Positions 1,265 through 63,842 of a stretch of 64,000 bases of DNA are shown here, piece after piece; within the stretch, counting starts at the first letter, position 1; each line of letters starts with the position of its first letter. The stretch comes from Bacteroidia bacterium (GTDB lineage Bacteria; Bacteroidota; Bacteroidia; SpSt-205). The notes below the pieces were generated by a model. That model did no database searches. It had not been told where the DNA came from and saw only the letters and a list, made by a program, of their open reading frames with translations. The stretch is taken from NCBI GenBank assembly GCA_025059535.1, contig JANXCX010000019.1:132363-196362 (forward strand), given 5' to 3'. A program made the translations under genes and the position numbers.

Positions 1265-1272
1265 CAAAACTA
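1265..1272 (-). promoter_or_regulatory. -7 element TAGTTTTG
   Basis: Exact TAnnTTTG, 4 nt before minus ATG 1260. Confidence 0.6.
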
Positions 1273-2475
1273 CGAAGGAACATACATTCGTTCGTACAGG
1301 GGGTTTAGGTAGCGTCGGGCGATTTCACCGAGGGCCTGAGGGGTAAGGTCCTGGAGGGCTTCCTGCCAGAGGTGCGGCGCCGCCAGCTGACCTTGGTCCA
1401 GCAGGTGTCTGGCTTGCAGACTTATCCAGTAGGCGGGATTTTCGGCGGCAAGTTGCTGGCGGCCCCAGAAGCTCCGCCGCATCTGGGCAAGCTGGGAAGG
1501 AGAAGGCGCCTTATCCTGCCAGCGCTGGAGCTCGGCATGAATTAGGCGACGCGCCGGTGCTTTGGCCTCAGGGGTCAGACCTGCATAAATACCCCACACA
1601 CTGCGCTCAGGATAGCCATGCCAAAAACCATAGACGCTATAACACCAGCCATATTTCTCTCGCAGAAGGAGATTGAGCCGACTACCCATCTGCGGCCCAG
1701 CCAGCTCATGAAGAAGCAGCTGTAGCGCTAGACTTTCGGGTAGCGCATAAGGCGAAGGCCCCACCCCACCCACGACCAGATGCAGCTGCTGAGTGGGGCG
1801 TTTCAGCTCCTCTACGGAAGCCTCCGCCAACCTATCGTCAGGCGGGATTGGCGAAGGGCCGTTTTCGGCTCTGTCCCAGCCCGTCTGCTGGATGGCCTTA
1901 GCCACGCTACGGGCAGGCAAACCGCCACTTAGCACAAGCACCCAGCGCGCCGCTTGAAGCGCCTTATAGTGCCTTCGCAGCTCCTCGGCGCTAATTTGCC
2001 GCACACTTTCCGCATACCCAATAACGGGATGCCGAAGCCCCCCAGCCGCAAATACCTGCTCTTCAAAGTGGTCTAAGAGCGACTCCTCGGGAATGTCCTC
2101 ATACATCGCCTGCTCTTCTAGGATGACGGCCCGCTCCTTTTCCACTTCCTTTTCGGGAAAGGTTGCCTCATACGCCAGCTCGCGGAGGGTAGCCAACGCA
2201 GTAGGAAGGGCCGCAGGTGGCACGCGCAGCTCCACCCCCATTTTATCCTTAGTAGTGAAGGCATTCATCTCACCGCCAAAGCGTTCTATCCGGCGGAAAA
2301 GCGCGCGTCCTGAGCGCCGCTGCGTACCCTTGAATAAAGCATGCTCTAAAAAGTGGAGCAGGCCTTCTCGCTGAGGTGGGTCATGGCGGCTGCCTTTATT
2401 CCATAACAGCAGAAGAAGAATAGAGGTGGCACCAGGTCGCCAGTGATACCACACGCCCGAGGCGAGCGCTTCCAT
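1270..2475 (-). CDS. M16 family zinc metallopeptidase (insulinase/processing peptidase-like)
   Basis: HxxEH motif in LLHFLEHALFKGTQRR with downstream ILEEQAMYEDIPEE; ATG at 2475 preferred over TTG at 2484, which lies in the -7 motif. Confidence 0.88.
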   Translation of the reverse strand: MEALASGVWYHWRPGATSILLLLLWNKGSRHDPPQREGLLHFLEHALFKGTQRRSGRALFRRIERFGGEMNAFTTKDKMGVELRVPPAALPTALATLRELAYEATFPEKEVEKERAVILEEQAMYEDIPEESLLDHFEEQVFAAGGLRHPVIGYAESVRQISAEELRRHYKALQAARWVLVLSGGLPARSVAKAIQQTGWDRAENGPSPIPPDDRLAEASVEELKRPTQQLHLVVGGVGPSPYALPESLALQLLLHELAGPQMGSRLNLLLREKYGWCYSVYGFWHGYPERSVWGIYAGLTPEAKAPARRLIHAELQRWQDKAPSPSQLAQMRRSFWGRQQLAAENPAYWISLQARHLLDQGQLAAPHLWQEALQDLTPQALGEIARRYLNPLYERMYVPS

Positions 2476-2481
2476 AGGAGG

Positions 2482-2489
2482 CAAATCTA
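2482..2489 (-). promoter_or_regulatory. -7 element TAGATTTG of M16 gene
   Basis: Exact TAnnTTTG, 6 nt before ATG 2475. Confidence 0.6.
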
Positions 2490-2495
2490 CTTTTG
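2488..2495 (+). promoter_or_regulatory. -7 element TACTTTTG of trmB
   Basis: Exact TAnnTTTG, 7 nt before ATG 2503; shares TA with opposite-strand motif. Confidence 0.6.
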
Positions 2496-2502
2496 TGTAA
2501 GC

Positions 2503-3150
2503 ATGCTAGGAAAGCAGGAGAAACGACGACGCTATGCCACTAGCCCTTATGCCCTCTATGGCGAAAAGGTGCCTTCGGCGGGAGAGTGGCGGCATCGTTT
2601 AGGCTTTCCTCCCCAGAACCCCCTTCTACTAGAGGTAGGGTGCGGGAAGGGGGAATTTGCGGTATTTTTAGCCGAACGGTACCCAGCAGCGCTTGTAATT
2701 GGGCTAGATCGGCGGGCAGACCGGCTGGCCGCTGGGTGCCGCCTCGCCCAGCAGAAGAACCTCGCCAACGTGTATTTCTGGCACGGCGATGCCCTTACCT
2801 TAGCCAGCGCTTTTAACCCAGGGGAGGTAGAGGCCATTTGGCTCAATTACCCAGACCCTTACCCTAAGGCCCGTCAGGCCAAACATCGCCTTACCCATCC
2901 GCGCTTCCTCTGGCAGTATGCCTATATCCTACAGCCTGAGGGTAAGCTCCACTTGCGCACCGATTCGGAAGCGCTTTTCCTATTTACGCTAGAGCAGCTT
3001 GAGGCGCAGGGATGGTCAATTCTCTATGCCAACCCAGCCCTTCCGCCTGACTCTGGCCCGCCTGAAGCCTACTTTCCTACCACTTTTGCCCTGCGCACTG
3101 GGGCCCCTATCCGCTACTTAGAGGCTGCAGCTCCTTTAAGAGCTCGCTAA
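2503..3150 (+). CDS. trmB: tRNA (guanine-N7-)-methyltransferase
   Basis: LLEVGCGKGEFAVFLAERYP, GLDRRADRL, IWLNYPDPYPKARQAKHRLTHPRFL typical of TrmB. Confidence 0.92.
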   Translation: MLGKQEKRRRYATSPYALYGEKVPSAGEWRHRLGFPPQNPLLLEVGCGKGEFAVFLAERYPAALVIGLDRRADRLAAGCRLAQQKNLANVYFWHGDALTLASAFNPGEVEAIWLNYPDPYPKARQAKHRLTHPRFLWQYAYILQPEGKLHLRTDSEALFLFTLEQLEAQGWSILYANPALPPDSGPPEAYFPTTFALRTGAPIRYLEAAAPLRAR

Positions 3151-3221
3151 GGAACAGCCCTACGCCGGTCTGTCTTTTGAAGCAGAAAGGCCCAGAGCCG
3201 GGTAGCTTGGCCTAAAGGGCG

Positions 3222-3229
3222 TATATTTG
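3222..3229 (+). promoter_or_regulatory. -7 element TATATTTG of tRNA-Cys
   Basis: Exact TAnnTTTG 7 nt before tRNA 5' end; TTG at 3207-3209. Confidence 0.6.
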
Positions 3230-3236
3230 CAAAAGC

Positions 3237-3307
3237 GGCGACGTGGCCGAGCGGTTAGGCACGGGTCTGCAAAACCCTCTACGGGAGTTCGAATCTCCCC
3301 GTCGCCT
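3237..3307 (+). tRNA. tRNA-Cys (GCA)
   Basis: Acceptor GGCGACG/CGTCGCC, anticodon loop CTGCAAA, TPsiC GTTCGAATC; CCA not encoded. Confidence 0.95.
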
Positions 3308-3312
3308 CACCG

Positions 3313-4158
3313 GTGTGGTACGTAGCGGGGTCGGTTCTTACAAATGTACTTCTTCTTCTGTGGCTGCGCCTTCTGCGCCTACCGCTTCTTAGTCTCATCA
3401 CGCTCAACTATGTGGTATGCGTAGGGCTGGCAACCGTACTCGCTCCCCCTACTTCTACTCAGTTGGCTGTCTTTCCTCCAAAGGGATGGCTCTTAGTGGG
3501 TATTTTGGGCCTCCTCTTTATTAGTGTATTCCTTTTCACAGGGCAGGCGACCCAGCGCTTAGGCGTAGGGCTTACGGGGATGTTAGCAAAGCTCTCGGTA
3601 GTGATTCCCATAGGCTTTACGGCGATGGTAGTAGGGGAAAGGCTTACGGCGCCGCAAAAGGTAGGGCTACTTTTGGGCGTAGGGGCTATCCTAGCGCTTC
3701 ATGCGCCTTATCTCCAAGGCGGCCGCTGGCGTGCGCTGCTTGAGGCCCTCCCTATAGGTTTTTTGGTCTGGCTGGGCAATGGGGTCATTGATAGCCTTTT
3801 CAAGCTCAGCCAGCCCTACTGGCAGGGACTTTCCACCCTCCACGTGCCGCTTCTCATCATGGTAGTAGCGGGAGTAGTGGGGCTCCTGATTCATTCCTTT
3901 CAAAAGCGGCTGGGGCTCCTCTTTCAGCCTCGCCTCTGGGCTGGCGCGCTCCTCCTTGGCGGGACTAACCTGCTCTCTATCGTCTTCTACCTGCAGGGGC
4001 TCAAGGCTCTACCCGCCGCCACGTTTTTTCTTTGGAACAACCTCGGGATTGTCTTACTTTCCGGCCTGGTGGGTATTTTAGCTTTTCGGGAGCGCCTTAC
4101 CCCCGCCGTAGGCCTTGGCTACGCCTTAGGTGTAGCGGCACTCGTGCTGGTGCGCTAA
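3313..4158 (+). CDS. EamA/DMT-like multi-TM transporter
   Basis: About 10 hydrophobic segments with EamA-like half-repeat (MVVGERLTAPQKVGLLLGVGAI ... LAFRERLTPAVGLGYALGVAALVLV); GTG start 5 nt after tRNA-Cys. Confidence 0.75.
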   Translation: MWYVAGSVLTNVLLLLWLRLLRLPLLSLITLNYVVCVGLATVLAPPTSTQLAVFPPKGWLLVGILGLLFISVFLFTGQATQRLGVGLTGMLAKLSVVIPIGFTAMVVGERLTAPQKVGLLLGVGAILALHAPYLQGGRWRALLEALPIGFLVWLGNGVIDSLFKLSQPYWQGLSTLHVPLLIMVVAGVVGLLIHSFQKRLGLLFQPRLWAGALLLGGTNLLSIVFYLQGLKALPAATFFLWNNLGIVLLSGLVGILAFRERLTPAVGLGYALGVAALVLVR

Positions 4159-4161
4159 GGC

Positions 4162-6471
4162 TTATTCGCTAACTAAAACTTTCTGAGCGCAGCGGCCTTC
4201 ACTATCCCGAACTACATACACCCCAGGCGGCAGAGCATGGAGGCGAACGCCTTCTGAACCTACCTGACAGGCGGATACCTGGCGGCCTGCAGCCTCCCAA
4301 ATTTCCAATAGGAGAGGTGCCTCACTTTCTAGCAGAAGGCCCCCCCGTACAGCCTGGGCCCGCCAGCTTACGGGTGGTACTCCTACTGGCAAAGCCATAG
4401 ACTGTGTACTGAATTTCATCAGGAAGGCCTCCTTAGTGGCACCTTGGCCATAATGATTAGGTTGGTGGGTGCCGCCCGTACCAATCTGCGTGCGGGAGGA
4501 GGTAGTGCCGCCTACATAGATTTCATTCAGGCGGGAGACGGCGCAGGCAAATACCTCATCATCCAATTCCCCCCCTACATAAGTGGCGCGCAGCACCTGA
4601 CCCTGAGGGGAAAGAAGGGCTAAAAAGCCGTCGTAATTACCATCCGTAAAATTCGGCTGATGGCTTAAGGGCGTAGCTATGCGGCTTCGGGATTCGGTAT
4701 AGCCCGCTATCACCACATTTCCCGCCGTATCTATAGCGGCCGCATAAATATCATCTACCCCAGAACCGCCGAAGTAAGTGCCCCACTCCCTTTGGCCCTG
4801 GCTATTTAGGCGGGCTACAAACCCATCCCCTGATCCTCCACCATAGGTACTTTGATGCGTGCCTGACGTAGCTATGTTGTCTTCGGAAGGCGTTCTACCT
4901 ATTAGATAAATCTCCCCATTTTTCCCTATTAGGCATCGCTCGGCTATATCCGCGAAGGGGGCACTTCCGCCGTAGTACGTGCCCCACTGCCGCTGGCCAT
5001 TAGAGCTAAATTTGGCCAAAAAGGCGTCCCCTGAACCCGCATTAGCCAGCGTGGGTTTATGCGTGCCTGCCGTGGCGATGTTATTAGAAGAGTTAGTACT
5101 ACCACAGAGGTAGAGATTGCCTTGCGCATCTACCGTACAATGCAATCCTTCCTCGCTTCCACTCCCGCCATAATAGGTAGCCCAGAGGCGTGCCCCTGTG
5201 GAGGAGAATTTAGCTAAGAAGGCATCATTCACCCCGCCTCCAAATCCACCTTGATGAGCCCCTGATGAGGCAATACCGCTAGAAGAGGAAGTTGAGCCGC
5301 TTACATAGAGATTTCCCGCTTGATCCACGGCGCAACTGTAGGCTCCGTCAAAACTAGAGCCGCCAAAGTAGGTACCCCATTCGCGCGTACCTGAGGCGGA
5401 GAACTTGGCTAAGAAAGCATCTCCATAGGTGGGGGAATTGGGGGGGCCTCCATAGTTTGGCTGATGGGTGCCAGAGGTTGCTATGCCGTTTGAGGAGCTT
5501 GTACCCCCAGCTACATATAGATTCCCCTGCACGTCCAGGGCACACCCAAGGGCGGCATCGGCTTCACTTCCACCGTAATAGGTAGCCCATATGCGACCGC
5601 CTGAAGGGCTGAACTTTACAATTAGCACATCCTCGTCGCCGGCTAGGGTAGTCTGATGCACCCCGGAGGTGGCTACATTTTGGGCCGAAGTGGTAGAGCC
5701 CGTAGCGTAGATATTACCTTGGGCATCCACGGTCAGGCATTGAAATACCTCTAAGCCTTCCCCGCCATAGTAAGTGCCCCAGGCGCGTGCGGCTGGGTCT
5801 ATGAAGAGTGCTTCACAGAGGAGTCGGCCCTCCAAGTAAAGGCCCACCTCTTGCGGGCCAAGAAGCTGCCACCGGGCTTCTAAGGGTCGGCCTTCGGCCC
5901 AGGCGCGCGGGGGCGACTGGCGAAGAAGGCCTACAGGGGTAATAAAGATTAGCTCGCCCCCCTCCAAAGCCACTTCCGCCCCACGCACACGGAAGCGGAT
6001 AAGCCGCTCATCCGCTCCGGGCGCTACCTCCAGCTCATAATTGGGTCCTTCCCTTGTCGCTTCAAATCGTAGCGTTATACCCGGCCAGAGTCCCGCATAG
6101 CGCACCCGTCTGTAACTGCGCACAAAAAGCACCGGCTCACACCCCTCTGGGACATTGTAAAAGTTTTCATAGCCCGGCAGAAGCGCCTCACCAACCACCT
6201 CAGAGGGTTGGGCTTCCACGAAATCCACCTCTATACGATAAAGCCCCCGCTGAGTCCCTTCCTTATACGCTAGCTGATACAAAAGCCCCGTGCGGCTGAG
6301 GTGGTAAATGAGCCCTGGCGCACTTCCGCTGAAAAGCACATCGCTTCGGGGGGACCCATGCTGGTCATAGACTTGACCTTTATTTTCCCTAAAACCGATG
6401 GGGGAGTCTAGAAGGGACTGAGCCCCTAGAAAGCCAGCCAACAGGCCAGCTATAAAGTAACTTTTCGGCAT
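4162..6471 (-). CDS. SBBP-repeat beta-propeller secreted protein with probable T9SS C-terminal domain
   Basis: About 7 repeats of W(A/G)TYYGGS...D..GN.Y..GST.S..NIATSGTHQ...DAFLAKFS..G; C-term LLEIWEAAGRQV...LPPGVYVVRD...KVLVSE. Confidence 0.85.
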   Translation of the reverse strand: MPKSYFIAGLLAGFLGAQSLLDSPIGFRENKGQVYDQHGSPRSDVLFSGSAPGLIYHLSRTGLLYQLAYKEGTQRGLYRIEVDFVEAQPSEVVGEALLPGYENFYNVPEGCEPVLFVRSYRRVRYAGLWPGITLRFEATREGPNYELEVAPGADERLIRFRVRGAEVALEGGELIFITPVGLLRQSPPRAWAEGRPLEARWQLLGPQEVGLYLEGRLLCEALFIDPAARAWGTYYGGEGLEVFQCLTVDAQGNIYATGSTTSAQNVATSGVHQTTLAGDEDVLIVKFSPSGGRIWATYYGGSEADAALGCALDVQGNLYVAGGTSSSNGIATSGTHQPNYGGPPNSPTYGDAFLAKFSASGTREWGTYFGGSSFDGAYSCAVDQAGNLYVSGSTSSSSGIASSGAHQGGFGGGVNDAFLAKFSSTGARLWATYYGGSGSEEGLHCTVDAQGNLYLCGSTNSSNNIATAGTHKPTLANAGSGDAFLAKFSSNGQRQWGTYYGGSAPFADIAERCLIGKNGEIYLIGRTPSEDNIATSGTHQSTYGGGSGDGFVARLNSQGQREWGTYFGGSGVDDIYAAAIDTAGNVVIAGYTESRSRIATPLSHQPNFTDGNYDGFLALLSPQGQVLRATYVGGELDDEVFACAVSRLNEIYVGGTTSSRTQIGTGGTHQPNHYGQGATKEAFLMKFSTQSMALPVGVPPVSWRAQAVRGGLLLESEAPLLLEIWEAAGRQVSACQVGSEGVRLHALPPGVYVVRDSEGRCAQKVLVSE

Positions 6472-6501
6472 GCGATAAAGGTACAAATCTGCCCCACGAG
6501 A

Positions 6502-7314
6502 CTATTCGTAACTTTCGGCTAGGGAAGGAAAGTTTCGGTTCTTGACATCCTGAATATAACGGTGGCAGGCCTCCCGGACGACGCCAGCGAGTTGGGCATA
6601 GCGCCGGAGAAAGCGAGGCGAAAAAGCTTCGGTAAGCCCGAGCATGTCATACAGCACAAGGACCTGGCCGTCGCAGTAAGGCCCCGCTCCTATTCCAATA
6701 GTAGGGATAGGGAGGCTTTGGGTTACTTCTTGAGCTAGTTTAGCGGGGATTTTCTCTAATACAAGCGCAAAGATGCCAGCTTTGGCCAGGAGCTGGGCTT
6801 CGTGTCGGAGGCGTTCGGCTTCGCCGGCGTCTTTGGCTCGGACGCGATAACCGCCGTACTGGTAGATGGACTGGGGCATCAGCCCCAAGTGGCCCATGAC
6901 AGGAATGCCCGCTGAAAGGATGCGGCGCACCGAGTCTAATACCGCTTCCCCCCCTTCTAACTTTACGGCATGGGCCCCGCTCTCTTTCATGATTCGTACG
7001 GCGGCTTTGAGGGCGGCTTTAGAGTCGCCCTGATAGGTGCCAAAGGGCATATCCACTACTACCATCGCCCGCTTAGCCGCCCGCACCACTGCCGAGGCAT
7101 GGTAAATCATCTGCTCTAACGTAATAGGCAAGGTCGTCTCATGTCCCGCTATTACATTGGAAGCTGAGTCGCCTACCAGAAGCACCTCTATCCCGGCTGC
7201 ATCTAAAAGTCGTGCAAACGTATAGTCATAGGCCGTGAGCATAGTTATAGGCTCGCCGCGCGCCTTCATCTCCTGCAGCGTGCGCGTAGTGATGCGTTTA
7301 TCTTTGTTTTCCAT
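6502..7314 (-). CDS. panB: 3-methyl-2-oxobutanoate hydroxymethyltransferase
   Basis: [51 protein letters not shown]. Confidence 0.95.
7299..7306 (+). promoter_or_regulatory. -7 element TATCTTTG of ubiE
   Basis: Exact TAnnTTTG inside panB 5' coding end, 17 nt before ubiE ATG. Confidence 0.5.
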
Positions 7315-7323
7315 CGGTCAAAT

Positions 7324-8022
7324 ATGCAGAATCCGAGTGTATCGGGCCTCTTTCAAGCGATTGCAGCCCGCTATGACCGTATGAATCGCCTCATAAGCCT
7401 CGGGCAGGACCTGCGCTGGCGCCGACAGGCTGCGGCTTATCTCCGTGCCTTACAGCCCAAGCGCCTTTTAGACTTAGCCGCTGGTACAGGCGACTTTGCC
7501 CTGGCCGCCTCCCAAACCCTACCTTCTTTAGCCGAAGTCTACCTCGTAGACATTACGCCTGCCATGCTAGCCTATGCCCCCGCTAAGAAGCCTAACCGCC
7601 CCTCGCTTACTTGGCATATAGTAGAAGCCGATGCCCACCAGCTGCCCTTTGCTGAGAGATTTTTTGATGCCATCACCGTAGGCTTTGGCGTGCGAAATTT
7701 TTCGGATAGGCTCAGGGCCCTGCAAGAAATGCATCGCGTCCTACGCCAGGGAGGAAAAGCGGTTATTTTAGAAACGGGCGTGCCGCGCAACCCCCTCTGG
7801 CGCGCCCTATTTCAAGTCTATTTTCGCTTTTGGGTGCCCCTTTTAGGCGCGCTTATAGCCGGCCATAAAGCGGCTTACACCTACCTACCCGAGTCAACGG
7901 AGCGCTTTCCTCACCGAGAAGGTTTTCTATACCTTTGTCAAAAGGCGGGCTTCGCCCGCAGCAGCTTTCACGAGTTTATGGGCGGTGTAGCTATACTCTA
8001 CATACTGGAAAAAGATGACTAA
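7324..8022 (+). CDS. ubiE: Demethylmenaquinone methyltransferase UbiE/MenG
   Basis: YDRMNRLISLGQDLRWRR, LLDLAAGTGDFAL, ITVGFGVRNFSDR, EMHRVLRQGGKAVILE. Confidence 0.95.
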   Translation: MQNPSVSGLFQAIAARYDRMNRLISLGQDLRWRRQAAAYLRALQPKRLLDLAAGTGDFALAASQTLPSLAEVYLVDITPAMLAYAPAKKPNRPSLTWHIVEADAHQLPFAERFFDAITVGFGVRNFSDRLRALQEMHRVLRQGGKAVILETGVPRNPLWRALFQVYFRFWVPLLGALIAGHKAAYTYLPESTERFPHREGFLYLCQKAGFARSSFHEFMGGVAILYILEKDD

Positions 8023-8689
8023 ATCCCCGCCCCCCCTCACGGCTATGGTATGGGGCCTGGCATGGGCTCAATATAACCTTTACTACGACCTGCGCACCTT
8101 CAACTTAGGCCTCAACATAGGCTTCAATTACAATCAGGTCAAAATCCATTATACAAGCCTCCAATACAATCCCCCTTCCCCTAATGCCCCCGCTTTCGTA
8201 CGCATAGAGGGCATACCGGGCCTAAACTTGGGCCTAATCATAAATAAAAAACTCCATCGGTATTTTGACCTACGCAGCGTCGTAAGCGTCTCGCTCCAGC
8301 AGCGGAATATCTACTTTGAGCTAGCCGACACGGTCGTCAAACGCCGCTTGGAAGCGGCTTACCTCTACTTACCCCTTCTCCTCAAATATAAGTCCCAGTT
8401 CTACAAGGGCTACCGCGTGTATATCTTAGGAGGCGTGCAGCTGGGCCTTAACTTAGCCAGCGACAAGCGCGTCCGAGATAACCCCGAACTCATTCGCATG
8501 GAGCGTACAGACTTTCAGTGGATTGCTGGTGTAGGGATGGACTTCTACCTACCTAATGTCAAATTCTCGCCCGAACTCAGCTATTCGCTGGGCTTTCGGA
8601 ACGTGTACGATCCTACCGGCACGCGCTATGGGTATGTGATTCGCTCGCTCCATATGCAGACCATTTCGCTAAATTTCCAATTTGAATAA
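8015..8689 (+). CDS. porT: PorT-family outer-membrane beta-barrel protein (T9SS-associated)
   Basis: Beta-barrel pattern, LNLGLIINKKLHRYFDLRSVVSVSLQQR; overlaps ubiE by 8 nt, a neighbourhood I recall for porT in Bacteroidota. Confidence 0.6.
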   Translation: MTKSPPPLTAMVWGLAWAQYNLYYDLRTFNLGLNIGFNYNQVKIHYTSLQYNPPSPNAPAFVRIEGIPGLNLGLIINKKLHRYFDLRSVVSVSLQQRNIYFELADTVVKRRLEAAYLYLPLLLKYKSQFYKGYRVYILGGVQLGLNLASDKRVRDNPELIRMERTDFQWIAGVGMDFYLPNVKFSPELSYSLGFRNVYDPTGTRYGYVIRSLHMQTISLNFQFE

Positions 8690-8701
8690 GTATTTTCGGC
8701 G

Positions 8702-9226
8702 ATGGCTATCATCCGAGCGATACAGGGTAAGACACCCCAAATAGGTCCAGAGACCTTTTTGGCCGAGACGGCCGTTATTATTGGTGATGTTGTGCTGGGA
8801 AGCCAGTGTAGCGTATGGTACCACGCTGTGGTGCGCGGGGATGTGCATTACATTCGGGTCGGCGATCGTACGAATATCCAGGATGGCGCTATTCTTCACT
8901 GCACCTATCAGAAGGCCCCTTTGGAAATTGGCTCAGAGGTAACAATTGGGCATCGGGCAGTTGTGCATGGCTGTCGGATCGGTAATCGCGTGCTGATAGG
9001 TATGGGGGCTATAATTTTGGACCAGGCGGAGATACCCGATGAGGTGTTTATTGCGGCTGGGGCCTTGATACCCCCGGGGGCGCGCTTAGAATCAGGCTAC
9101 CTTTATGCGGGCATTCCGGCGCGCGCCGTACGCCCCCTTACCCCAGAAGAACGGGCCGATTTGAGGGGCTATGCCCACCGCTACATCTATTACAAGTCCT
9201 GGTACGAAGCGGCTTCCGTTACTTAG
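8702..9226 (+). CDS. Gamma-class carbonic anhydrase-like hexapeptide-repeat protein
   Basis: [33 protein letters not shown]...[26 protein letters not shown]. Confidence 0.9.
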
Positions 9227-9228
9227 CT

Positions 9229-9236
9229 TATCTTTG
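9229..9236 (+). promoter_or_regulatory. -7 element TATCTTTG
   Basis: Exact TAnnTTTG, 4 nt before ATG 9241. Confidence 0.65.
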
Positions 9237-9240
9237 GTCA

Positions 9241-11022
9241 ATGCTTGAGGTACGCCATCTCCATGTGGGTTTTAGCACGCGGGCAGGCTACACGCCAGCT
9301 GTGGAGGATGTAAGCTTTACTCTACCCCCCGGGAGAACCTTAGGGATTGTAGGGGAGTCGGGCTCAGGCAAAAGCGTAACCGCTCTCTCTATCTTGCGCC
9401 TTATTCCCTCGCCACCCGGCCAAATCCGTCAAGGGGAAATTCTCTTTGACTCGCCTTCTTTAGGGCGGGTAGATCTCCTGACTCTTTCCGAGAAGCAGAT
9501 GCGCCACCTGCGCGGGAATGAAATCGCCATGATCTTTCAAGAGCCTATGACCTCCCTCAATCCTGTTTTTACCTGCGGGGAGCAGGTGGTGGAGGCGATT
9601 CGCCTACATCAACGAGTCTCAGCTAAGGAGGCGTACGAACGTGCCTTGGCTCTTTTTGAGGAGGTCAAACTACCCAATCCAAAGCGCATTTATGAGGCCT
9701 ACCCGCATCAGCTCTCGGGCGGCCAAAAACAGCGGGTAATGATTGCAATGGCCATCAGCTGCGAGCCACGCCTTCTTATCGCCGATGAGCCTACCACCGC
9801 TTTAGATGTAACGGTTCAAAAGACTATTCTGGAGCTTCTTTTAGAGCTTCAGACGCGCCATGGCATGAGCCTGATTTTTATTTCCCATGATTTAGGCGTT
9901 ATTGGCGAGATATGCGACGAGGTTTTGGTGATGTATAAGGGTAAAGTGGTGGAACAGGGTGAGGTGCGGGCTATTTTTGCTCACCCCCGCGCGGCCTATA
10001 CGAAAGGGCTAATTGCCTGTCGGCCACCTTTGGATCGTCGCTTGCATCGTTTGCCTACGCTGGCGGACTTTCTGCGAGCCCCTGAGCGCCTCACCGTAGA
10101 AGAAGCCCTGAAGGCCGAAACCGTCTCAGAAGAGCAGTACCGCACCCGTCAAAAGCGGCTTGCGGCTCAAGCACCCCTGCTGGAGGTGGAAAATCTTCAA
10201 GTCCATTTTCCCGTTACGCGCGGCGTTTTTGGGCGAGTAGTAGATTACGTCAAAGCCGTAGATGGGGTAAGTTTCACCGTCTACCCTGGTGAGACAGTAG
10301 GCCTAGTGGGCGAATCCGGCTCGGGTAAAACTACCACGGGCCGCGCGATTCTACGCCTTATAGAACCGACAGGGGGGCGTGTAGTTTTTATGGACCAGGA
10401 GGTTACTGGCTTACCCTCTGAAGCCCTACGCCGCCTGCGCCGCTACATGCAGATTATCTTCCAAGACCCCTATAGCTCGCTAAACCCCCGCCTTACCGTA
10501 GGCACTATGCTTACGGAGCCCTTGCTTTTCCATAAAATCGTAGAAACTCCCGCCCAGGCCAAAGAAAAAGCCATAGAACTTTTAGAGAAAGTTGGCTTAG
10601 AGGCGGATCACTTCTACCGCTACCCTCATGAATTTTCGGGTGGGCAGCGCCAGCGGATCGCGATTGCGCGCGCCTTAGCGGTTCAGCCTAAGTTCATCAT
10701 TTGCGATGAGAGCGTCTCGGCCCTGGACGTCTCCGTGCAGGCCCAGGTACTCAACCTTCTCCTAGACCTTCAAGAGCAGTATGGCCTATCCTACCTTTTC
10801 ATTTCGCACGATTTGAGCGTAGTCAAATTTATGAGCGACCGCCTCCTCGTGCTCTATCAAGGCAAAGTAGTGGAGAGCGGCTATGCGGAGGATATTTACC
10901 GTGCGCCGCAGCATCCCTATACGCAGCGCCTCATTGAGGCGATTCCGAAAGGGCGTCTGCAGGATATAGAAGCAGCCCTGGCCCGCCGGCGCCACGCACG
11001 ACCAACAACCGCTACCTTCTGA
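9241..11022 (+). CDS. Peptide/nickel-type ABC transporter, fused dual ATP-binding protein (DppD-DppF/GsiA-like)
   Basis: Two Walker A ([16 protein letters not shown]), two signature motifs ([16 protein letters not shown]), oligopeptide-type insertion after each domain. Confidence 0.92.
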
Positions 11023-11147
11023 GGCTTGAGACTAGGCGTAAGGACTGGATTGGGTCAAGGGGTGTAAAACCTATCCCTATTTTTTCTCTACTTCGCCCGC
11101 AGCGTAGCCAGAAATCCATCTGGTCCTTCATCTCCTCACTTAATCGT

Positions 11148-11155
11148 TATCTTTG
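11148..11155 (+). promoter_or_regulatory. -7 element TATCTTTG
   Basis: Exact TAnnTTTG, 3 nt before GTG 11159. Confidence 0.6.
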
Positions 11156-11158
11156 TGT

Positions 11159-13999: not shown

Positions 14000-14005
14000 C
14001 TCTTA

Positions 14006-14461: not shown

Positions 14462-14484
14462 AAGAATAAATAAATATAGCGCGT

Positions 14485-16577: not shown

Positions 16578-16596
16578 GAGGTTAATTATAGTACCT

Positions 16597-19083: not shown

Positions 19084-19087
19084 GCCG

Positions 19088-19095
19088 CAAAAGTA
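19088..19095 (-). promoter_or_regulatory. -7 element TACTTTTG
   Basis: Exact TAnnTTTG, 4 nt before minus-strand ATG 19083. Confidence 0.6.
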
Positions 19096-19120
19096 AAACC
19101 CACCCCCCAGAAAAAAGCAC

Positions 19121-19128
19121 TACCTTTG
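19121..19128 (+). promoter_or_regulatory. -7 element TACCTTTG of secA
   Basis: Exact TAnnTTTG, 10 nt before ATG 19139. Confidence 0.6.
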
Positions 19129-19138
19129 CCTAATTAGT

Positions 19139-24942: not shown

Positions 24943-24950
24943 CAAAGCTA
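24943..24950 (-). promoter_or_regulatory. -7 element TAGCTTTG of icd
   Basis: Exact TAnnTTTG, 7 nt before ATG 24935. Confidence 0.55.
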
Positions 24951-25517: not shown

Positions 25518-25544
25518 CGCTACAAAAGTGCGATGGAATTTATG

Positions 25545-25552
25545 TACCTTTG
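25545..25552 (+). promoter_or_regulatory. -7 element TACCTTTG
   Basis: Exact TAnnTTTG, 18 nt before ATG 25571. Confidence 0.5.
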
Positions 25553-32165: not shown

Positions 32166-32173
32166 TATATTTG
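32166..32173 (+). promoter_or_regulatory. -7 element TATATTTG
   Basis: Exact TAnnTTTG, 4 nt before ATG 32178. Confidence 0.65.
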
Positions 32174-35189: not shown

Positions 35190-35212
35190 AGGCCACTTAC
35201 CTATACTTGATT

Positions 35213-37823: not shown

Positions 37824-37831
37824 TACCTTTG
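37824..37831 (+). promoter_or_regulatory. -7 element TACCTTTG of tRNA-Ser
   Basis: Exact TAnnTTTG, 4 nt before tRNA 5' end; TTG at 37809-37811. Confidence 0.6.
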
Positions 37832-37835: not shown

Positions 37836-37925
37836 GGAGAGGTGCCGGAGTGGTCGAACGGGCCTGACTCGAAATCAGGTAGCCTGCGGCAAGCGGGCTC
37901 GGGGGTTCGAATCCCCCCCTCTCCG
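37836..37925 (+). tRNA. tRNA-Ser (CGA)
   Basis: Acceptor GGAGAGG/CCTCTCC, anticodon loop CTCGAAA, long variable arm, GGTTCGAATCC; CCA not encoded. Confidence 0.95.
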
Positions 37926-38639
37926 CTATAGGCTATTTTGCCGAAACGCCTCAGCTAGGAGAATAGCGGCTACGGCGCTCACATTGAGCGATTCTACGTT
38001 GGGTTGGTGAGGTATTGTAAGGCAAACTGAGGCTAAGCGAAAATAGGGTGCAGGAATGCCCTTCTGCTCTTCGCCTAGCAGAACTACAGAGGGTGTGGCC
38101 CAATTCCACTGGAAGTACGGTATAGCGCCTTCGGCTCGCGGGGTTGTGGCTATGATCTCCCACCCCGCTGCACGGAGTCTTTGGAGCGCCTGCAAGGGAC
38201 GCTTCTCGCGAACAACGCAAAGCTGAGCCAACGCCCCCGCACTCGCGCGCCAAAGAGCTGGATTAGAAGTAAGGGGCGAGCCTTCGGCCTTCAGCATAAT
38301 CCACTTTACCCCAAAAGCTAAGGCGCTGCGGCAGATAGCCCCTACATTTCGCGGGTCGGTAATACCTAGTAGACCAAGGGCCACCCCTTTAGGGGGTAAT
38401 TGCAGCCACTCTTCTAGCGTGTATAGACGCAGGGGGCTAAGAAGCGCTGCCCAATAAGTGCCGCTTGGGAGGGCGGAGGCAGGTACCCACTGCACCTTCC
38501 AATCGTAGTGTCGCACCAGGGGCCGAAGCGGTGCTGGGAGGGGCTGACCTTCTCGGACTAGGAGGCGCTCTACCTGGACGCCCCCCTCCACGGCGCGCCG
38601 CAGCGCCCGAAGCTCCGTAAGGACTAAGGCTTTTCCCAT
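37926..38639 (-). CDS. TrmH/SpoU-family RNA methyltransferase
   Basis: GLLGITDPRNVGAICRSALAFGVKWIML, VVLLGEEQKGIPAPYF, LTIPHQPNVESLNVSAVAAILLAEAFRQ. Confidence 0.9.
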   Translation of the reverse strand: MGKALVLTELRALRRAVEGGVQVERLLVREGQPLPAPLRPLVRHYDWKVQWVPASALPSGTYWAALLSPLRLYTLEEWLQLPPKGVALGLLGITDPRNVGAICRSALAFGVKWIMLKAEGSPLTSNPALWRASAGALAQLCVVREKRPLQALQRLRAAGWEIIATTPRAEGAIPYFQWNWATPSVVLLGEEQKGIPAPYFRLASVCLTIPHQPNVESLNVSAVAAILLAEAFRQNSL

Positions 38640-42517: not shown

Positions 42518-42525
42518 CAAATATA
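42518..42525 (-). promoter_or_regulatory. -7 element TATATTTG
   Basis: Exact TAnnTTTG, 5 nt before ATG 42512. Confidence 0.6.
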
Positions 42526-43108: not shown

Positions 43109-43113
43109 GGCGC

Positions 43114-45978: not shown

Positions 45979-45999
45979 AAAGGCAATATTAGCAAGAAT

Positions 46000-47937: not shown

Positions 47938-48005
47938 CCTTTCTTGCAAAATACGCCCAGGAACGCAATAGGGGAGCTCTGAACCCAGCGTATCCTCCTG
48001 CTAAA

Positions 48006-48013
48006 TATCTTTG
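48006..48013 (+). promoter_or_regulatory. -7 element TATCTTTG
   Basis: Exact TAnnTTTG, 7 nt before TTG start 48021. Confidence 0.6.
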
Positions 48014-48020
48014 TACAGCG

Positions 48021-50543: not shown

Positions 50544-50570
50544 AGCGGGGGCGGAATAGGTTCTACGCAG

Positions 50571-50578
50571 TATTTTTG
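50571..50578 (+). promoter_or_regulatory. -7 element TATTTTTG
   Basis: Exact TAnnTTTG, 4 nt before ATG 50583. Confidence 0.6.
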
Positions 50579-50582
50579 CTGC

Positions 50583-51608: not shown

Positions 51609-51612
51609 GCCC

Positions 51613-55694: not shown

Positions 55695-55697
55695 AAC

Positions 55698-57614
55698 CTA
55701 CTTAGCGAAATACGCCCCTTCCTGCTTCACCAGCGGGCGGTACTTGTGCGACGGAGAAGGAATAAACGCACCTAAGCCATACTCTTCCCAGCGCTGATCC
55801 ACGCGGGCAATAATCTCCTCCGACATTACGATTACATTTGGCCAAGGCCGAGCAAAATCATCTAAGGTCTTCGTTTTAGTACTGGCATCTAATATTAGGT
55901 GGGGGCGGCCGGCCTCATCCTCTATTAGCTGGCTATCGCGCCGCAGGTCTATGTTATTGGCCAATCGCCAGAACACATCGCTAAGGTCCTGAATGGGCAT
56001 TTCGCCATCAAGAAGGATAATCGCTTTCACGCCAGCAAAGGCGGGATGGCGCGCCAGCCTTTCCCCCAGCCGAAGCCCATGGCGCCTTTCGCTCTTGCGA
56101 AATGACCCTATCCAGACGGGTATGCCCTGCTGGATAAGACGCAAATTGACCTCTATGAGTTCGGGAAAGTCTTTCTGGAGGGCTTCCAAAGCAAGGGCCG
56201 AAGGCATGGCGGGCGGATAGGTAAGGGGTGGTAGAAGCCTTTCGGCGGGCAGCTTGCGCGTACCATCTAAGCCGAGTTTGCCGCCAAAGCCCATTTGACT
56301 GCAGGCATGATCCAGGACATCAATAGGGCCCTGCGTAAAGACTAAATCCGTGCGTAGATCCGTGTTGTCGGCCACTGCCTTGGCTACCGCCCAATAGTCG
56401 GTTAGGGGCACGTCGGCATCTACTACGATAGCGATTTTCGTTAGCATAAGCTGCCCTGCCCCCCAAAGGGTATGAATAGCCTTAAGTCCTTGCCCGGGAT
56501 ATTCCTTCTGGATTGCCGCAATCGCCAGGTTGTGAAAAACCCCTTCTACGGGCAGTTCCATATCCACCAGTTCAGGCAGGAAGGTAAGGCGAATAGGCAC
56601 AAGAAAGATGCGTTCGGTGGCTTTTCCCAGCCAGGCGTCCTCTTGGGGTGGAATCCCCACTACCGTAGCGGGGTAAATGGCATCCCGGCGGTGCGTAATC
56701 GCTGTGACGTGAAAAGCCGGGTAATAATCCGGCAGCGAATAGTAGCCGGTATGATCGCCAAAGGGGCCCTCTAGCCGCAGGGGTTCAGTGGGGTCTACGT
56801 AGCCTTCTATGACTATGTCGGCATCGGCTGGCACTTCAATCGGCTGGGTAAGGCAGCGCACAAGCTCTACAGGGCGGCGCCGCAGAAAGCCGGCTAAAAG
56901 ATACTCATCCACATTCTCGGGTAGGGGCGCCGTAGCCGCATAGGCATACACCGGATCACCGCCTAAGGCGATCGCTACAGGCATTTTCTGACCTGTAGCT
57001 TTCCAAGCCTCGTAGTGGCGTCGGGACACTTTATGCAGCTGCCAGTGAATAGCCGTGGTATAGTCGTCAAAAACCTGCATGCGATACATGCCTACGTTGC
57101 GCTGGCGCGTCTCAGGATGGTAGGTATGTACTATAGGAAGGGTGATAAAAGGGCCCCCATCGGCGGGCCAGCAGGTGAGAATAGGGAGGCGGCTGAGGCG
57201 AGCCTCTGCGCCCAGATAAACTACCTCTTGGCAGGGTGCTTTACCCCCGCGCCAACGACGCGGAAAATAGCGCGCAATTTCACCCAGTGTAGGCAAAATG
57301 GCCAGCTTTTCTAAAAGGCTGCCGCGCACTCGGGTAAGCTGCTGAAAGAGCTGCTGCATACGCTGAGCCACGTCCGTTAGGCGCTCTACCCCTAGAGCCA
57401 GGGCCATACGCCGCTCCGACCCATAAGCCCCAATCAGGAGGGGGAACTCTTTGCCTGTCCGCTCAAAAAGCAGCGCAGGTCCCCCCGCTTTTATTACCCG
57501 ATCCACAATCTCGGTTATCTCTAAGTGAGGGGAGACGGGGACGGAGATACGCCGAAGCTCCCCTAAGCGCTCCAGCTTAGCTACGAAAGCGGCGAGTCCA
57601 GGCGGCTTAGCCAC
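55698..57614 (-). CDS. UbiD-family decarboxylase (possibly menaquinone biosynthesis)
   Basis: LEGPFGDHTGYYSLPDYYPAFHVTAITHRRDAIYPATVVGIPPQEDAWLGKATERIFL. Confidence 0.9.
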   Translation of the reverse strand: MAKPPGLAAFVAKLERLGELRRISVPVSPHLEITEIVDRVIKAGGPALLFERTGKEFPLLIGAYGSERRMALALGVERLTDVAQRMQQLFQQLTRVRGSLLEKLAILPTLGEIARYFPRRWRGGKAPCQEVVYLGAEARLSRLPILTCWPADGGPFITLPIVHTYHPETRQRNVGMYRMQVFDDYTTAIHWQLHKVSRRHYEAWKATGQKMPVAIALGGDPVYAYAATAPLPENVDEYLLAGFLRRRPVELVRCLTQPIEVPADADIVIEGYVDPTEPLRLEGPFGDHTGYYSLPDYYPAFHVTAITHRRDAIYPATVVGIPPQEDAWLGKATERIFLVPIRLTFLPELVDMELPVEGVFHNLAIAAIQKEYPGQGLKAIHTLWGAGQLMLTKIAIVVDADVPLTDYWAVAKAVADNTDLRTDLVFTQGPIDVLDHACSQMGFGGKLGLDGTRKLPAERLLPPLTYPPAMPSALALEALQKDFPELIEVNLRLIQQGIPVWIGSFRKSERRHGLRLGERLARHPAFAGVKAIILLDGEMPIQDLSDVFWRLANNIDLRRDSQLIEDEAGRPHLILDASTKTKTLDDFARPWPNVIVMSEEIIARVDQRWEEYGLGAFIPSPSHKYRPLVKQEGAYFAK

Positions 57615-57633
57615 ACCTTCTTAACAACCCCAG

Positions 57634-59726
<2,093 letters not shown>

Positions 59727-59730
<4 letters not shown>

Positions 59731-61874
59731 ACCGAGAAAAGCAAGTCAGCGTAGCGCGGGAGGGGATACTTATCCGCTGGCATAAGCCGCTCGAGGGCAT
59801 CCGCATCCGCACGCAGTTGCTGCATTAGGGCGCGCACCTCGGTATGAACTCTTTCTATTTGGGCTTCGGCGGAGGGCAGCTGCATGATCGCTTGCCACAA
59901 GCGCTCAGCGGCTTGAATGTTTTGCCACAAGGATTCTATAGGACGCTGCAGAGCTTCTAAAAGTTCCTGTTGGGCTAGTTTAGCCGGCGCAAGGGCCTGG
60001 GCTAAATTTTGCATGGCCGGCGTAGCCAAGAGAGAGGCTAATTCACTTTGATACCGCAGCGCCGCCGGCAGAATCTGCGTGCGCAGTAGGTCTAAGAGGG
60101 TATGTAGTTCTATACCTAAAGCTTTCACATAGCGCTCCACACGCACCTCATAGCGCGCCTCCAGTTCCTTCTCCGAGAGAATGCGGAACTTGCCGAAAAG
60201 TTCTATAGTTTTGGGCGCTATGTAGGTCTTGAAGACTGTAGGAATATGGAAGGAGACGGCTAGGCCGCGGCGCTCGGCTTCCTGATGCCAGGCTGGGTCA
60301 TAGTTATTCCCATCAAACCGAATCGGCCGGCTTTCTATCAGAAACTCCCGAATAGTGGAGAGGAGGGCTAGCTCTTTAGAGGGCTGATGCGTACGCAGTT
60401 CCTCAAAGCGCTGGGCAAAGTCTTCCATAGACTCCGCTACGGCTGCATTGAGGGCAATCATGGCTGGGGCACAGTGGGCGGAGGCCCCTACGGCCCGAAA
60501 CTCAAACTTACTTCCTGTGAAAGCAAAGGGCGCCGTACGGTTACGATCCGTATTATCCCGCAGCACCGCCGGAAGGCGCGGAATAAGGAGAGAAAGCGGC
60601 GTTTTATCCGATAGGCGCGGGAGTTCGGGGGCCTTTTCCAGCACTTCTACCGCCGCCGTAACCTCCCGACCCAAAAATACCGACAGGATAGCTGGCGGGG
60701 CTTCATTTCCGCCTAAACGATGTTCGTTGCCCGGCGTAGCGATAGAGGCCCGCAGAAGGTCTGCATGGCGATACACCGCCCGCAGCACAATGCTAAGAAT
60801 GCTGAAGAAGCGCAGATTCTCGCGCGGGGTCTTACCGACAGAGAGTAGATTTATGCCCGTATCCGTAGCTAGGGACCAGTTATTATGCTTACCCGAGCCG
60901 TTTATGCCCGCGAAGGGCTTCTCGTGGAGGAGGCAAGCCAAGCCGTGGCGCTGGGCCGTGCGGCGCATAAGGTCCATAAGGAGCTGATTATGGTCAATCG
61001 CTATGTTGAGCTCCTCAAAGCTGGGCGCGCATTCGTACTGGGCGGGGGCCACTTCGTTATGCCGAGTCTTTAGGGGTATCCCTAAACGCCAAGCCTCAGC
61101 CTCCAGCTCCTCATAAAAGGCCAGTACTCGCTCAGGGATAGAGCCGAAGTAGTGGTCTTCCATTTGCTGCCCGCGCGGCGAGGGGGCCCCTATTAGCGTA
61201 CGGCCTGTAAGGACTAAGTCCAAACGCTGCCGATACAGACTATCCTCTATGAGGAAAAACTCTTGCTCCACCCCCAGCGTAGGATATACGCGCTGCACAT
61301 CCCGATAGAAAAGACGCACCACTTTGAGCGCGGCTTTATTGAGGGCTTCTATAGAGCGCAGAAGGGGCGTTTTATAGTCTAGGGCGTGGCCATCGTAGGA
61401 GATATACACCGAGGGAATGCATAGCGTGCGGCCATAGATAAAGGGCGGGGAGGTAGGGTCCCAGGCCGTATAGCCACGCGCCTCAAAGGTGCTACGCAGA
61501 CCGCCGCTAGGAAACGAGGAAGCATCGGGCTCTTGCTGAAGCAGCTCACTCCCATTGAAGGCCGAGAGTACCTTTCCCCGAATAGTCTCAAAAAAGTTCT
61601 CGTGCTTTTCCGCCGTAAGGCCCGTAAGGGGATGGAACCAGTGCGTATAGTGCGTAGCGCCACGCTCCACCGCCCACTTACGCAGTGCATTTGCAATCTC
61701 ATCGGCTAACTCAGGCGATATCGGCTCTCCACGCTCCCAGCGTGCCACAGCCTCTAACGCACTCTCCGAGAGATACTGCTGCATCACTTCCCGATGAAAT
61801 ACAAGCTCACCAAAAAGTTCTGGCCTTAGCCGAACTGAACTCCCATTTGTGGGCTCCACGAGCGTCCTTACCAT
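59727..61874 (-). CDS. glnN: Glutamine synthetase type III
   Basis: THWFHPLTGLTAEKHENFF, EQEFFLIEDSLYRQRLDLVLTGRTLIGAPSPRGQQMEDHYFG, RHNEVAPAQYECAP, FAGINGSGKHNNWSLATDTG. Confidence 0.96.
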
Positions 61875-61880
61875 GGACCA

Positions 61881-61888
61881 CAAAGGTA
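61881..61888 (-). promoter_or_regulatory. -7 element TACCTTTG of glnN
   Basis: Exact TAnnTTTG, 6 nt before ATG 61874. Confidence 0.6.
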
Positions 61889-61922
61889 GTACCTCACCCG
61901 CAATCCTGTACAGAAAAAATTC

Positions 61923-61930
61923 TACTTTTG
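61923..61930 (+). promoter_or_regulatory. -7 element TACTTTTG
   Basis: Exact TAnnTTTG, 4 nt before ATG 61935. Confidence 0.6.
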
Positions 61931-61934
61931 GCCT

Positions 61935-62951
61935 ATGGTGTTCTCCTTCCTGCGTCGGCAGTTCATCGAGATCATTGAGTGGGTGGACGAGACGCGCGAC
62001 ACGCTTATCTGGAAGTTTCCGGATGAGGACCGAGAGATTAAGATGGGTGCTCAGCTCACGGTGCGCGAGTCTCAGGTAGCCCTGCTAGTAAATGAAGGTA
62101 AAATCGCCGATGTATATCCCCCTGGTCGGCACGAGCTCACCACCCGAAATATGCCCATACTAAGCGACTTGCGGGGGTGGAAATATGGGTTTGAGTCGCC
62201 CTTCAAAGTAGATGTATATTTTGTCAGCACGCGCGAGTTTCAGAACCTGCGCTGGGGCACGCCGCAGCCCGTCATGGTTAATGACCCTGAGCTAAGCCTA
62301 GTACCCCTGCGGGCTTTTGGCACGTTTGGGATGCGCGTGCAGGAGGCGGCGACATTTTTCCGAAACTTCGCTGGCACCGATCCTGTAGTTACGATAGAGG
62401 AGTTCTTAGAGGGCGGTTTTCGCAGCCTCGTAGTTACGCATTTCTCCAATGCGCTCAAGCGCTCTGGTAAATCCCTAGCCGAAATCAACCTGCAGGCTAA
62501 TCAGCTGGGTGATGTCCTCTTGCCCCTCCTTCAGCCAGAGTTTGAGCGCATGGGATTATTACTAACTCGCTTTTTAGTAGAGAGTGTAACCCTACCCGAG
62601 GAGATTCAAAAGCAACTGGTAGAACAAGACTTAGAGCTGCGCAAGCTGCGCCGTAAAGTGGGCATGTCCCAAGAAATAGGGGATATGAGCCGCTTCCTGC
62701 AGTTTCAAGCTGGGCAGGCTATGGAGAAGGGCGAGGGCGCGGGCCTTGCGCGCGCCGCGCTAGAAATGGGCATGGGCCTGCAGATGGCCCAGCAAATGCA
62801 GCAGTCAGGGCCACCCCAGGGCAAAGCCACCCCCGAAGAGCGCACCCAAATCCTTCAAACGATAAAAGAACTCGCTGAGCTTAAGGCCGCCGGCATCTTA
62901 AGCGAAGAAGAATTTGAGACCAAGAAGAAAGAGCTTTTAAGCCGTTTGTGA
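61935..62951 (+). CDS. SPFH-domain (virion core-like) protein with C-terminal SHOCT-like motif
   Basis: ESQVALLVNEGKIADVYPPGRHELTTRNMPIL...; C-term IKELAELKAAGILSEEEFETKKKELLSRL. Confidence 0.88.
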   Translation: MVFSFLRRQFIEIIEWVDETRDTLIWKFPDEDREIKMGAQLTVRESQVALLVNEGKIADVYPPGRHELTTRNMPILSDLRGWKYGFESPFKVDVYFVSTREFQNLRWGTPQPVMVNDPELSLVPLRAFGTFGMRVQEAATFFRNFAGTDPVVTIEEFLEGGFRSLVVTHFSNALKRSGKSLAEINLQANQLGDVLLPLLQPEFERMGLLLTRFLVESVTLPEEIQKQLVEQDLELRKLRRKVGMSQEIGDMSRFLQFQAGQAMEKGEGAGLARAALEMGMGLQMAQQMQQSGPPQGKATPEERTQILQTIKELAELKAAGILSEEEFETKKKELLSRL

Positions 62952-63826
62952 GTGCGCTCCTGTGGAGCGTGGGCGGCCTTTTGGTGGGCCTAAGCGGCTT
63001 AGCCTGGGGCATTTACCAGTATTATCGGCGGCGCACCCTAGAACGGCAGCTGACACATCTACTCGGAACCTCCGAATGGCTCCCTGCGTTATCCGCCCTT
63101 ATCCAGCGGGCCCAGCGCCGAGAAAATGAAACCAGCGCCTCCCAAGTCTTCTTAGCTGAAGTCTCCCATGAGCTCAAAACGCCCTTAGCGATTCTACTCG
63201 GCTACTTAGATACCCTAGAACAAGGCGGGTGGCAAGATCCAGAAATTCTTCTACCCTTTTTGCGCAAGGCCCTTGCCCAAGTCCACCGTATGAATGCACT
63301 GGTGCAGGATATCCTTCTCCTGACGCAGATAGAGAGCGGAAATTGGCCTATACAGCCTGAGCCCGTGCTCCTTTACCCCTTGGTAGAAGATGTCTGGAAC
63401 AAGCTGGAACCCCTGGCCCAGAAAAAGCGGCTTACCCTTCGGCTACCTTCGCACGAGGTGCGCGACCTAGCCGTAGAAGCTGACCCCCTCGCCCTCCAGA
63501 AGATATTCAAAAATCTCCTGGAAAATGCCATTCAGTACAGTCCCGAGGGTAAAACGGTTACTATCGGCTGGGAACCCCTCCCGCAAGGGCATAGGGTAAA
63601 GGTATGGATAGCCGATGAAGGGATAGGGATTCCACCCCAGCACCTGCCGCATATCTTCAAGCGGTTTTATCGGGTAGATAAGAGCCGTTCCCGCCAGAGC
63701 GGGGGCACCGGCTTAGGCCTGGCTATCGTTCAAGAACTTATAGAGGCCCACGGCCAAACTATCACTGTGGAAAGCCAAGAAGGGGTAGGTACCCGCTTTA
63801 CGTTTTATTTGCCTGCGTGTGCATGA
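62948..63826 (+). CDS. Membrane sensor histidine kinase
   Basis: H-box EVSHELKTPLAILLGYLDTL; NLLENAIQYSPEGKTVTI; ADEGIGIPPQHLPHIFKRFYRVDKSRSRQSGGTGLGLAIV. Confidence 0.93.
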   Translation: MSALLWSVGGLLVGLSGLAWGIYQYYRRRTLERQLTHLLGTSEWLPALSALIQRAQRRENETSASQVFLAEVSHELKTPLAILLGYLDTLEQGGWQDPEILLPFLRKALAQVHRMNALVQDILLLTQIESGNWPIQPEPVLLYPLVEDVWNKLEPLAQKKRLTLRLPSHEVRDLAVEADPLALQKIFKNLLENAIQYSPEGKTVTIGWEPLPQGHRVKVWIADEGIGIPPQHLPHIFKRFYRVDKSRSRQSGGTGLGLAIVQELIEAHGQTITVESQEGVGTRFTFYLPACA

Positions 63827-63834
63827 TTTTTGCC

Positions 63835-63842
63835 TAGATTTG
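63835..63842 (+). promoter_or_regulatory. -7 element TAGATTTG
   Basis: Exact TAnnTTTG, 8 nt before ATG 63851. Confidence 0.55.

Follow-up and report, generated by a model that had tools for sequence, protein, structure and literature searches.

Promoter boxes adjoining start codons: leaderless mRNA as the very probable default in a family of Bacteroidia

Bacteroidota are the textbook example of bacteria that ignore Shine-Dalgarno sites. A stretch of 64,000 nucleotides (nt) from a Bacteroidia bacterium (SpSt-205; contig JANXCX010000019.1, positions 132,363 to 196,362), here called the window, raises the question whether a whole family of them also transcribes its genes without leaders. In the window, the octamer TAnnTTTG stands a few nt in front of many start codons. 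A preliminary description had taken it for the -7 box of the housekeeping sigma factor and the mRNAs behind it for leaderless. The window forms part of an assembly of 1.92 Mb in 25 contigs that is 98% complete (G000). Below, the position of the element, its genome-wide peak, its promoter properties, its conservation and its family-wide distribution are described, and we infer from them where transcription starts and how translation begins. In this family, mRNAs are very probably leaderless by default. It is highly probable that the -7 element of the ordinary housekeeping sigma factor has been drawn up to the coding sequence family-wide and that most first-gene mRNAs are leaderless.

The window contains 56 exact copies of TAnnTTTG on both strands vs 30.1 ± 5.5 in dinucleotide shuffles, and none of 100 shuffles reaches 56. 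The clustering is not due to chance, as had been estimated from base composition. The gap is defined here as the number of nt between the end of TAnnTTTG and the start codon, and gaps of 3-8 are designated the leaderless register. Upon re-examination, coordinates, strands, gaps and start codons of the 19 elements described before protein genes turned out to be exact, the distances of 7 and 4 nt to two tRNA genes were right and the five elements with one mismatch were present (Table 1). The leaderless reading of the 19 sites has to be narrowed: 17 of them have gaps of 3-10, and those at 7299 and 25545, with gaps of 17-18, are better described as short-leadered.

Genome-wide, TAnnTTTG-N3..8-ATG occurs 384 times in G000 vs 42 times for the reversed pattern. 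This control underestimates the base rate (9-fold excess vs 4-fold by a flat baseline), and gap profiles and the layout ratio defined below were preferred. In 432 kb, i.e. the window and 368 kb of sampled stretches of the same assembly, each ATG behind the motif was counted without gene calls. The counts for gaps 4, 5 and 6 are 39, 11 and 18, respectively, compared with a flat baseline of 3.6 ATG per position at gaps 20-79. Relative to this baseline, ATG is in about 11-fold excess at gap 4 (39 vs 3.6, Poisson P ~1e-26) and in 4.1-fold excess for gaps 3-8 together. A smaller rise is seen for GTG, which reaches 10 at gap 4. No second ATG peak is present in this histogram at 20-35 nt, where the promoters of leadered Bacteroidota lie. 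In the replication sample, 790 kb of the congener G400, the element lies at gap 3-8 for 107 of 281 first genes (gap 4 in 52 of them) and at gap 15-30 for 10. Of the exact boxes located up to 80 nt from first genes, approximately 70-77% are in the leaderless register (107/139 in G400, 44/65 in G000). The sharp gap-4 peak, found in G000 and its family and not in typical Bacteroidota, bears out what the window alone had suggested.

Such a peak would mislead if the start codons were misplaced and the true starts lay downstream, behind normal leaders of 20-30 nt. Automated start calls are often wrong, and the present ones were made by a simple coding-potential caller. Two gene callers were used in succession, since the first one overlooked some real genes; the outcome was the same. 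The gap-4 ATG peak is independent of start calls, and the element-ATG pair near first-gene starts is in frame in 39 cases and out of frame in none. Comparison of orthologues argues in the same direction. For G000 genes carrying an exact element, 35 orthologues from G400, G405 and G406 were compared: 28 match TAnnTTTG exactly in the 3-8 register, and another 3 do so with a single mismatch. In the control register 25-30 of the same 35 orthologues, no exact element was found. Among orthologues, the sequences preceding the box are 27% identical, i.e. random, and the gap drifts (4 to 5, 8 to 7). This means, the box and a short spacing are conserved, not a block of sequence. Since orthologous start and box are retained while their flanks have diverged, and since the rpsU product aligns with outgroup proteins from its first residue (see below), misplaced starts are improbable in the extreme.

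The element behaves like a promoter and not like a translation signal. In four family genomes, it is found in exact form at gap 3-8 before 136 of 294 divergently transcribed genes (46%), and before 6 of 311 internal genes (2%) whose intergenic space is shorter than 9 nt. Where internal genes have 9-30 nt of intergenic room, 38 of 99 (38%) carry an in-register element; these genes probably form units of their own, driven by minimal promoters. Nearly all first-of-unit tRNA genes are preceded by exact boxes at gap 4-13 (11/15 tRNAs in the G000 sample, 17/23 in G400), and the tRNAs devoid of a box are mostly second genes of tandem pairs. Furthermore, G is avoided at the two free positions (22/239 and 13/239, the latter at n4 with P = 6e-18), which the search pattern did not impose. 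A corresponding TAHHTTTG rule has been reported for the sigma-A box of F. johnsoniae (PMC6847099). By the 'no G' rule, the unit starts and the tRNA genes, the assignment of TAnnTTTG to the Bacteroidota sigma-A -7 box is upheld.

Alternatively, the motif might be a translation-initiation signal, either U-rich for protein S1 or Kozak-like, and ordinary leaders might issue from promoters further upstream. The motif does adjoin the start codon, and Bacteroidota, which lack Shine-Dalgarno sites, rely on upstream sequence context (PMC6847099). This proposal conflicts with the occurrence of the element at an equal distance before tRNA genes, its near absence from coupled internal genes and the lack of a second promoter peak upstream. 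In addition, the known context in Bacteroidota is A-rich, whereas in the family adenine does not exceed background ahead of the start codon (Flavobacterium: 0.49 vs 0.33). Together with the outgroup rpsU genes discussed below, these data make a translation signal very improbable.

In RpoD, region 2.3-2.4 exhibits no family-specific change. Family-specific changes cluster in region 4 (residues 225-288 of the L020 RpoD) and include a C-terminal tail RTNPAVMEPLRQYLG vs HTSRSKALKAYLG-like tails. A sigma-factor cause of the layout was considered and rejected: Region 2 is unchanged, and the changes in region 4 were not tied to the layout. The family rpoD genes themselves (L020, L211-L217) have no exact TAnnTTTG in register. 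They share a conserved GCAACTTTT...CGTATA before AGAGCTATG, and this upstream sequence looks like an extracytoplasmic function (ECF)-type promoter with a short leader.

In Bacteroidota promoters, the box spans -12 to -5 and is separated from the transcription start site (TSS) by 4 or 5 nt (PMC6847099, PMC9723704). The tRNA genes of the family delimit this distance, too. The smallest gap, 4 nt, occurs at the Asn and Ser-CGA tRNA genes of two genomes, and transcripts must start at most 5 nt from the box, as the tRNA would otherwise be truncated. With 4-5 nt between box and TSS, a gap of 4 would let transcription begin at the A of ATG. From the published spacing and the tRNA genes, transcription is predicted to start 0-4 nt from the start codon, in support of the earlier proposal that it begins a few nt after the element. 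Since the box is not in the transcript, an mRNA leader can never be longer than the gap.

It is conceivable that the mRNAs are short-leadered instead of leaderless, with a TSS nearer to the box and leaders of 2-4 nt that differ functionally from a 5'-terminal AUG. Gaps of 6-8 account for 68 of 239 elements in the four genomes, the tRNA gaps centre at about 7, and 6 is the typical gap at rpsU. Against this, gap 4 is the mode (112/239) and leaves no leader at a box-to-TSS spacing of 4-5 nt, and leader length is in any case capped by the gap. Short leaders of this kind are unlikely. On the leaderless reading, transcription would start on, or 1-4 nt 5' of, the start codon, with the A of AUG as the commonest 5' end. 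The ribosome would recognise the 5'-terminal AUG (or GUG) directly and would need neither a Shine-Dalgarno sequence nor an A-rich leader. No Shine-Dalgarno enrichment was found before first or internal genes; Shine-Dalgarno-like 4-mers amount to 5-8%, below the reversed control. Internal genes mostly overlap or abut; in G000, 103 of 141 have a spacing of less than 9 nt. Such tightly coupled downstream cistrons lack a separate element and probably depend on translational coupling.

The rpsU gene, which encodes bS21, is the clearest case and illustrates how this state may have arisen. In 9 of 9 family loci, an exact box precedes rpsU at gap 5-7, e.g. TATCTTTG-CGCCCC-ATG. The G000 rpsU has a box with one mismatch at gap 5, which makes ten family genomes in all with gap 5-7. 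In 13 of the 14 outgroups whose gene was read, an exact box lies 17-51 nt from the start and is followed by a leader. Most of these leaders open with TTTGC, two or three bases and CC, whereas the ATG follows directly in the family. It looks as if the promoter had been kept and the rest of the leader excised. The family proteins align with those of the outgroups from residue 1. Two outgroups (L159, L165) have GGAGG before rpsU. F. johnsoniae and related bacteria have a strong Shine-Dalgarno sequence in rpsU that serves auto-regulation via bS21 (PMC10783764). As there is no room for such a sequence at the family rpsU, bS21 auto-regulation is probably absent there. bS21 itself was found in 11 of 12 family genomes. 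A search for 16S rRNA, whose 3' end would carry the CCUCC anti-Shine-Dalgarno sequence, gave no hit in the family assemblies, and the gene is masked in the one genome made up of a single contig. The leaderless state would thus have been reached by loss of the 5' untranslated region (5'UTR), with the rpsU promoter retained and its leader gone.

The family comprises 12 genomes, 11 in one genus and one in a second genus. The layout is seen in all 12 and is weak in the sister family. For comparison, a layout ratio was defined as the count at gaps 3-8 divided by 0.6 times the count at gaps 20-29. It amounts to 3.2-5.4 in the family and to 0.6-2.05 in other relatives. In a survey of 396 genomes of the phylum, in which ratios were calculated by hand from the counts for stand-out candidates, G000 ranks first, followed by family f26. 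Four f26 genomes (G101, G113, G136, G382) and G115 exhibit a milder excess at gap 3-8, with ratios of about 1.6-2.5. In f26, this is perhaps an independent partial shift. G415 and G041 were suggested as leaderless by the raw ratio and not upheld by the gap profile. Among first genes, gaps 3-8 and 15-30 account for 2% and 20% in Raineya orbicola, 0% and 9% in Flavobacterium, and 4% and 4% in Hymenobacter. The nearest named RpoD (73%) belongs to the metagenome-assembled genome SKYG108 (JANWVE010000031.1). In SKYG108 (L023, G432; GC content 37%), 27% of first genes (16/59) have the element at gap 3-8 and 10% (6) have it at gap 15-30; this may be an intermediate state.

How does this layout relate to known systems? 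With the Bacteroidota sigma-ABfr promoter (-7 TAnnTTTG, -33 TTTG), the family shares the -7 box, the avoidance of G at nn and an unchanged RpoD region 2.3-2.4. It differs in that the box lies 3-8 nt from the start codon and not some 20-35 nt. In Actinobacteria and Deinococcus-Thermus, leaderless mRNAs likewise have a -10-type element just before the start of the first gene and no Shine-Dalgarno sequence (PMC3160421). In contrast to them, the family uses a different sigma box and belongs to a phylum with an anti-Shine-Dalgarno sequence occluded by bS21/bS18/bS6 (PMC10783764) and with A-rich leaders. Of 37 Bacteroidetes/Chlorobi genomes in a genomic survey that searched for Pribnow-like boxes only, one had leaderless genes, which constitute 2.4% of its genes (PMC3160421). 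TSS maps are available for three species with the same promoter type: 3.7% of 5'UTRs are shorter than 10 nt in B. thetaiotaomicron (PMC7366714), 5.5% leaderless was reported for F. psychrophilum (PMC9723704), and 13% of leaders in F. johnsoniae do not exceed 10 nt (PMC6847099). Short leaders are the exception there, whereas the leaderless register prevails in the family, and the view that its layout is unusual for the phylum agrees with these maps. Leaderless signals in Bacteroidetes have been discussed on the basis of nucleotide biases (PMC5397173). No report of a Bacteroidota clade with a leaderless default was found in the open-access literature. Leaderless mRNA and the TAnnTTTG box are each known; their combination as a family-wide default in Bacteroidota appears to be new.

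Several points weigh against a leaderless default. An exact in-register element is found at just 29-46% of first genes; with a degenerate matrix, the excess of first genes in register is 41%. Leadered genes exist, since 19% of first genes have the element at 9-90 nt. The start calls depend on coding potential alone. The genome is an uncultured assembly whose TSS positions are predicted from sequence, and the box-to-TSS spacing is borrowed from other genera and from the tRNA bracketing. A lighter point concerns the -33 TTTG element: In 66 aligned elements, there is no information peak near -33. This resembles the sigma-A promoters of F. johnsoniae, where the -33 element is weak or absent and likewise not evident (PMC6847099), and it is not treated as excluding the family promoters from the sigma-A class.

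The elements of the window are listed in Table 1. Some divergent pairs have two back-to-back -7 boxes in a tiny intergenic space, both in the window (2482-2495 and 58818-58847) and in other family genomes. Altogether, 35 divergent pairs carry both boxes, with start-to-start distances as low as 27 nt. The upstream promoter DNA must then fall in the opposite gene, so that the two promoters are probably mutually exclusive. Apparent operon members may have their own promoters, too, as complete boxes occur in spaces of 9-30 nt (e.g. window 9227-9240). Boxes beginning with TAG or TAA could also serve as the stop codon of the upstream gene.

Table 1. TAnnTTTG elements of the window and the starts they precede (exact matches unless remarked otherwise)
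Element	Positions	Strand	Gap (nt)	Downstream start	Remark
TAGTTTTG	1265..1272	-	4	ATG 1260	gene leaves window at left edge
TAGATTTG	2482..2489	-	6	ATG 2475 (M16 peptidase)	back-to-back with 2488 element
TACTTTTG	2488..2495	+	7	ATG 2503 (TrmB)	
TATATTTG	3222..3229	+	7	tRNA-Cys (3237-3308)	
TATCTTTG	7299..7306	+	17	ATG 7324 (UbiE/MenG)	short-leadered, not leaderless
CATATTTG	7319..7326	-	4	270-amino-acid gene from 7314	one mismatch; panB in preliminary description
TATTTTCG	8691..8698	+	3	ATG 8702	one mismatch; gamma-CA in preliminary description
TATCTTTG	9229..9236	+	4	ATG 9241 (oligopeptide-type ABC ATPase)	entirely inside 14-nt intergenic space
TATCTTTG	11148..11155	+	3	GTG 11159	
TACTTTTG	19088..19095	-	4	ATG 19083	
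TACCTTTG	19121..19128	+	10	ATG 19139 (SecA)	predicted leader ~5-6 nt
TAGCTTTG	24943..24950	-	7	ATG 24935 (isocitrate dehydrogenase)	
CACTTTTG	25523..25530	-	5	ATG 25517 (ruvA)	one mismatch
TACCTTTG	25545..25552	+	18	ATG 25571	short-leadered
TATATTTG	32166..32173	+	4	ATG 32178 (TonB-dependent receptor)	
TATACTTG	35202..35209	+	3	ATG 35213	one mismatch; nuoA in preliminary description
TACCTTTG	37824..37831	+	4	tRNA-Ser (37836-37926)	brackets TSS to <=5 nt from element
TATATTTG	42518..42525	-	5	ATG 42512	
TAATATTG	45984..45991	-	5	ATG 45978 (CocE/NonD hydrolase)	one mismatch
TATCTTTG	48006..48013	+	7	TTG 48021 (GldE-like)	
TATTTTTG	50571..50578	+	4	ATG 50583	
TATCTTTG	58818..58825	-	5	ATG 58812 (thiolase)	
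TACCTTTG	58840..58847	+	4	ATG 58852 (VIT family)	
TACCTTTG	61881..61888	-	6	ATG 61874 (glutamine synthetase-like)	
TACTTTTG	61923..61930	+	4	ATG 61935	
TAGATTTG	63835..63842	+	8	ATG 63851	gene leaves window at right edge

The proteins of G000, G405 and G406 have an IVYWREL fraction of 0.45 vs 0.38-0.40 in most other sampled Bacteroidota, which would point to a thermophile. A broader scenario, to which we give about even chances, is that a family that is thermophilic by amino-acid composition and has small genomes switched its default initiation from a leadered, A-rich context to leaderless mRNA by wholesale deletion of 5'UTRs. It would have lost the Shine-Dalgarno control of rpsU in the process; its ribosomes would be tuned to a 5'-terminal AUG and its downstream cistrons would depend on coupling. 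With the same phylum, the same sigma box and bS21 present, the family offers a natural comparison for asking what had to change, be it ribosome, initiation factors or sigma factor. At rpsU, the step of leader loss is visible at a single gene. Gene starts in such genomes are callable from the promoter box. Regulation by 5'UTRs, as exerted by riboswitches, attenuators or at the targets of small RNAs, should be largely absent in this family.

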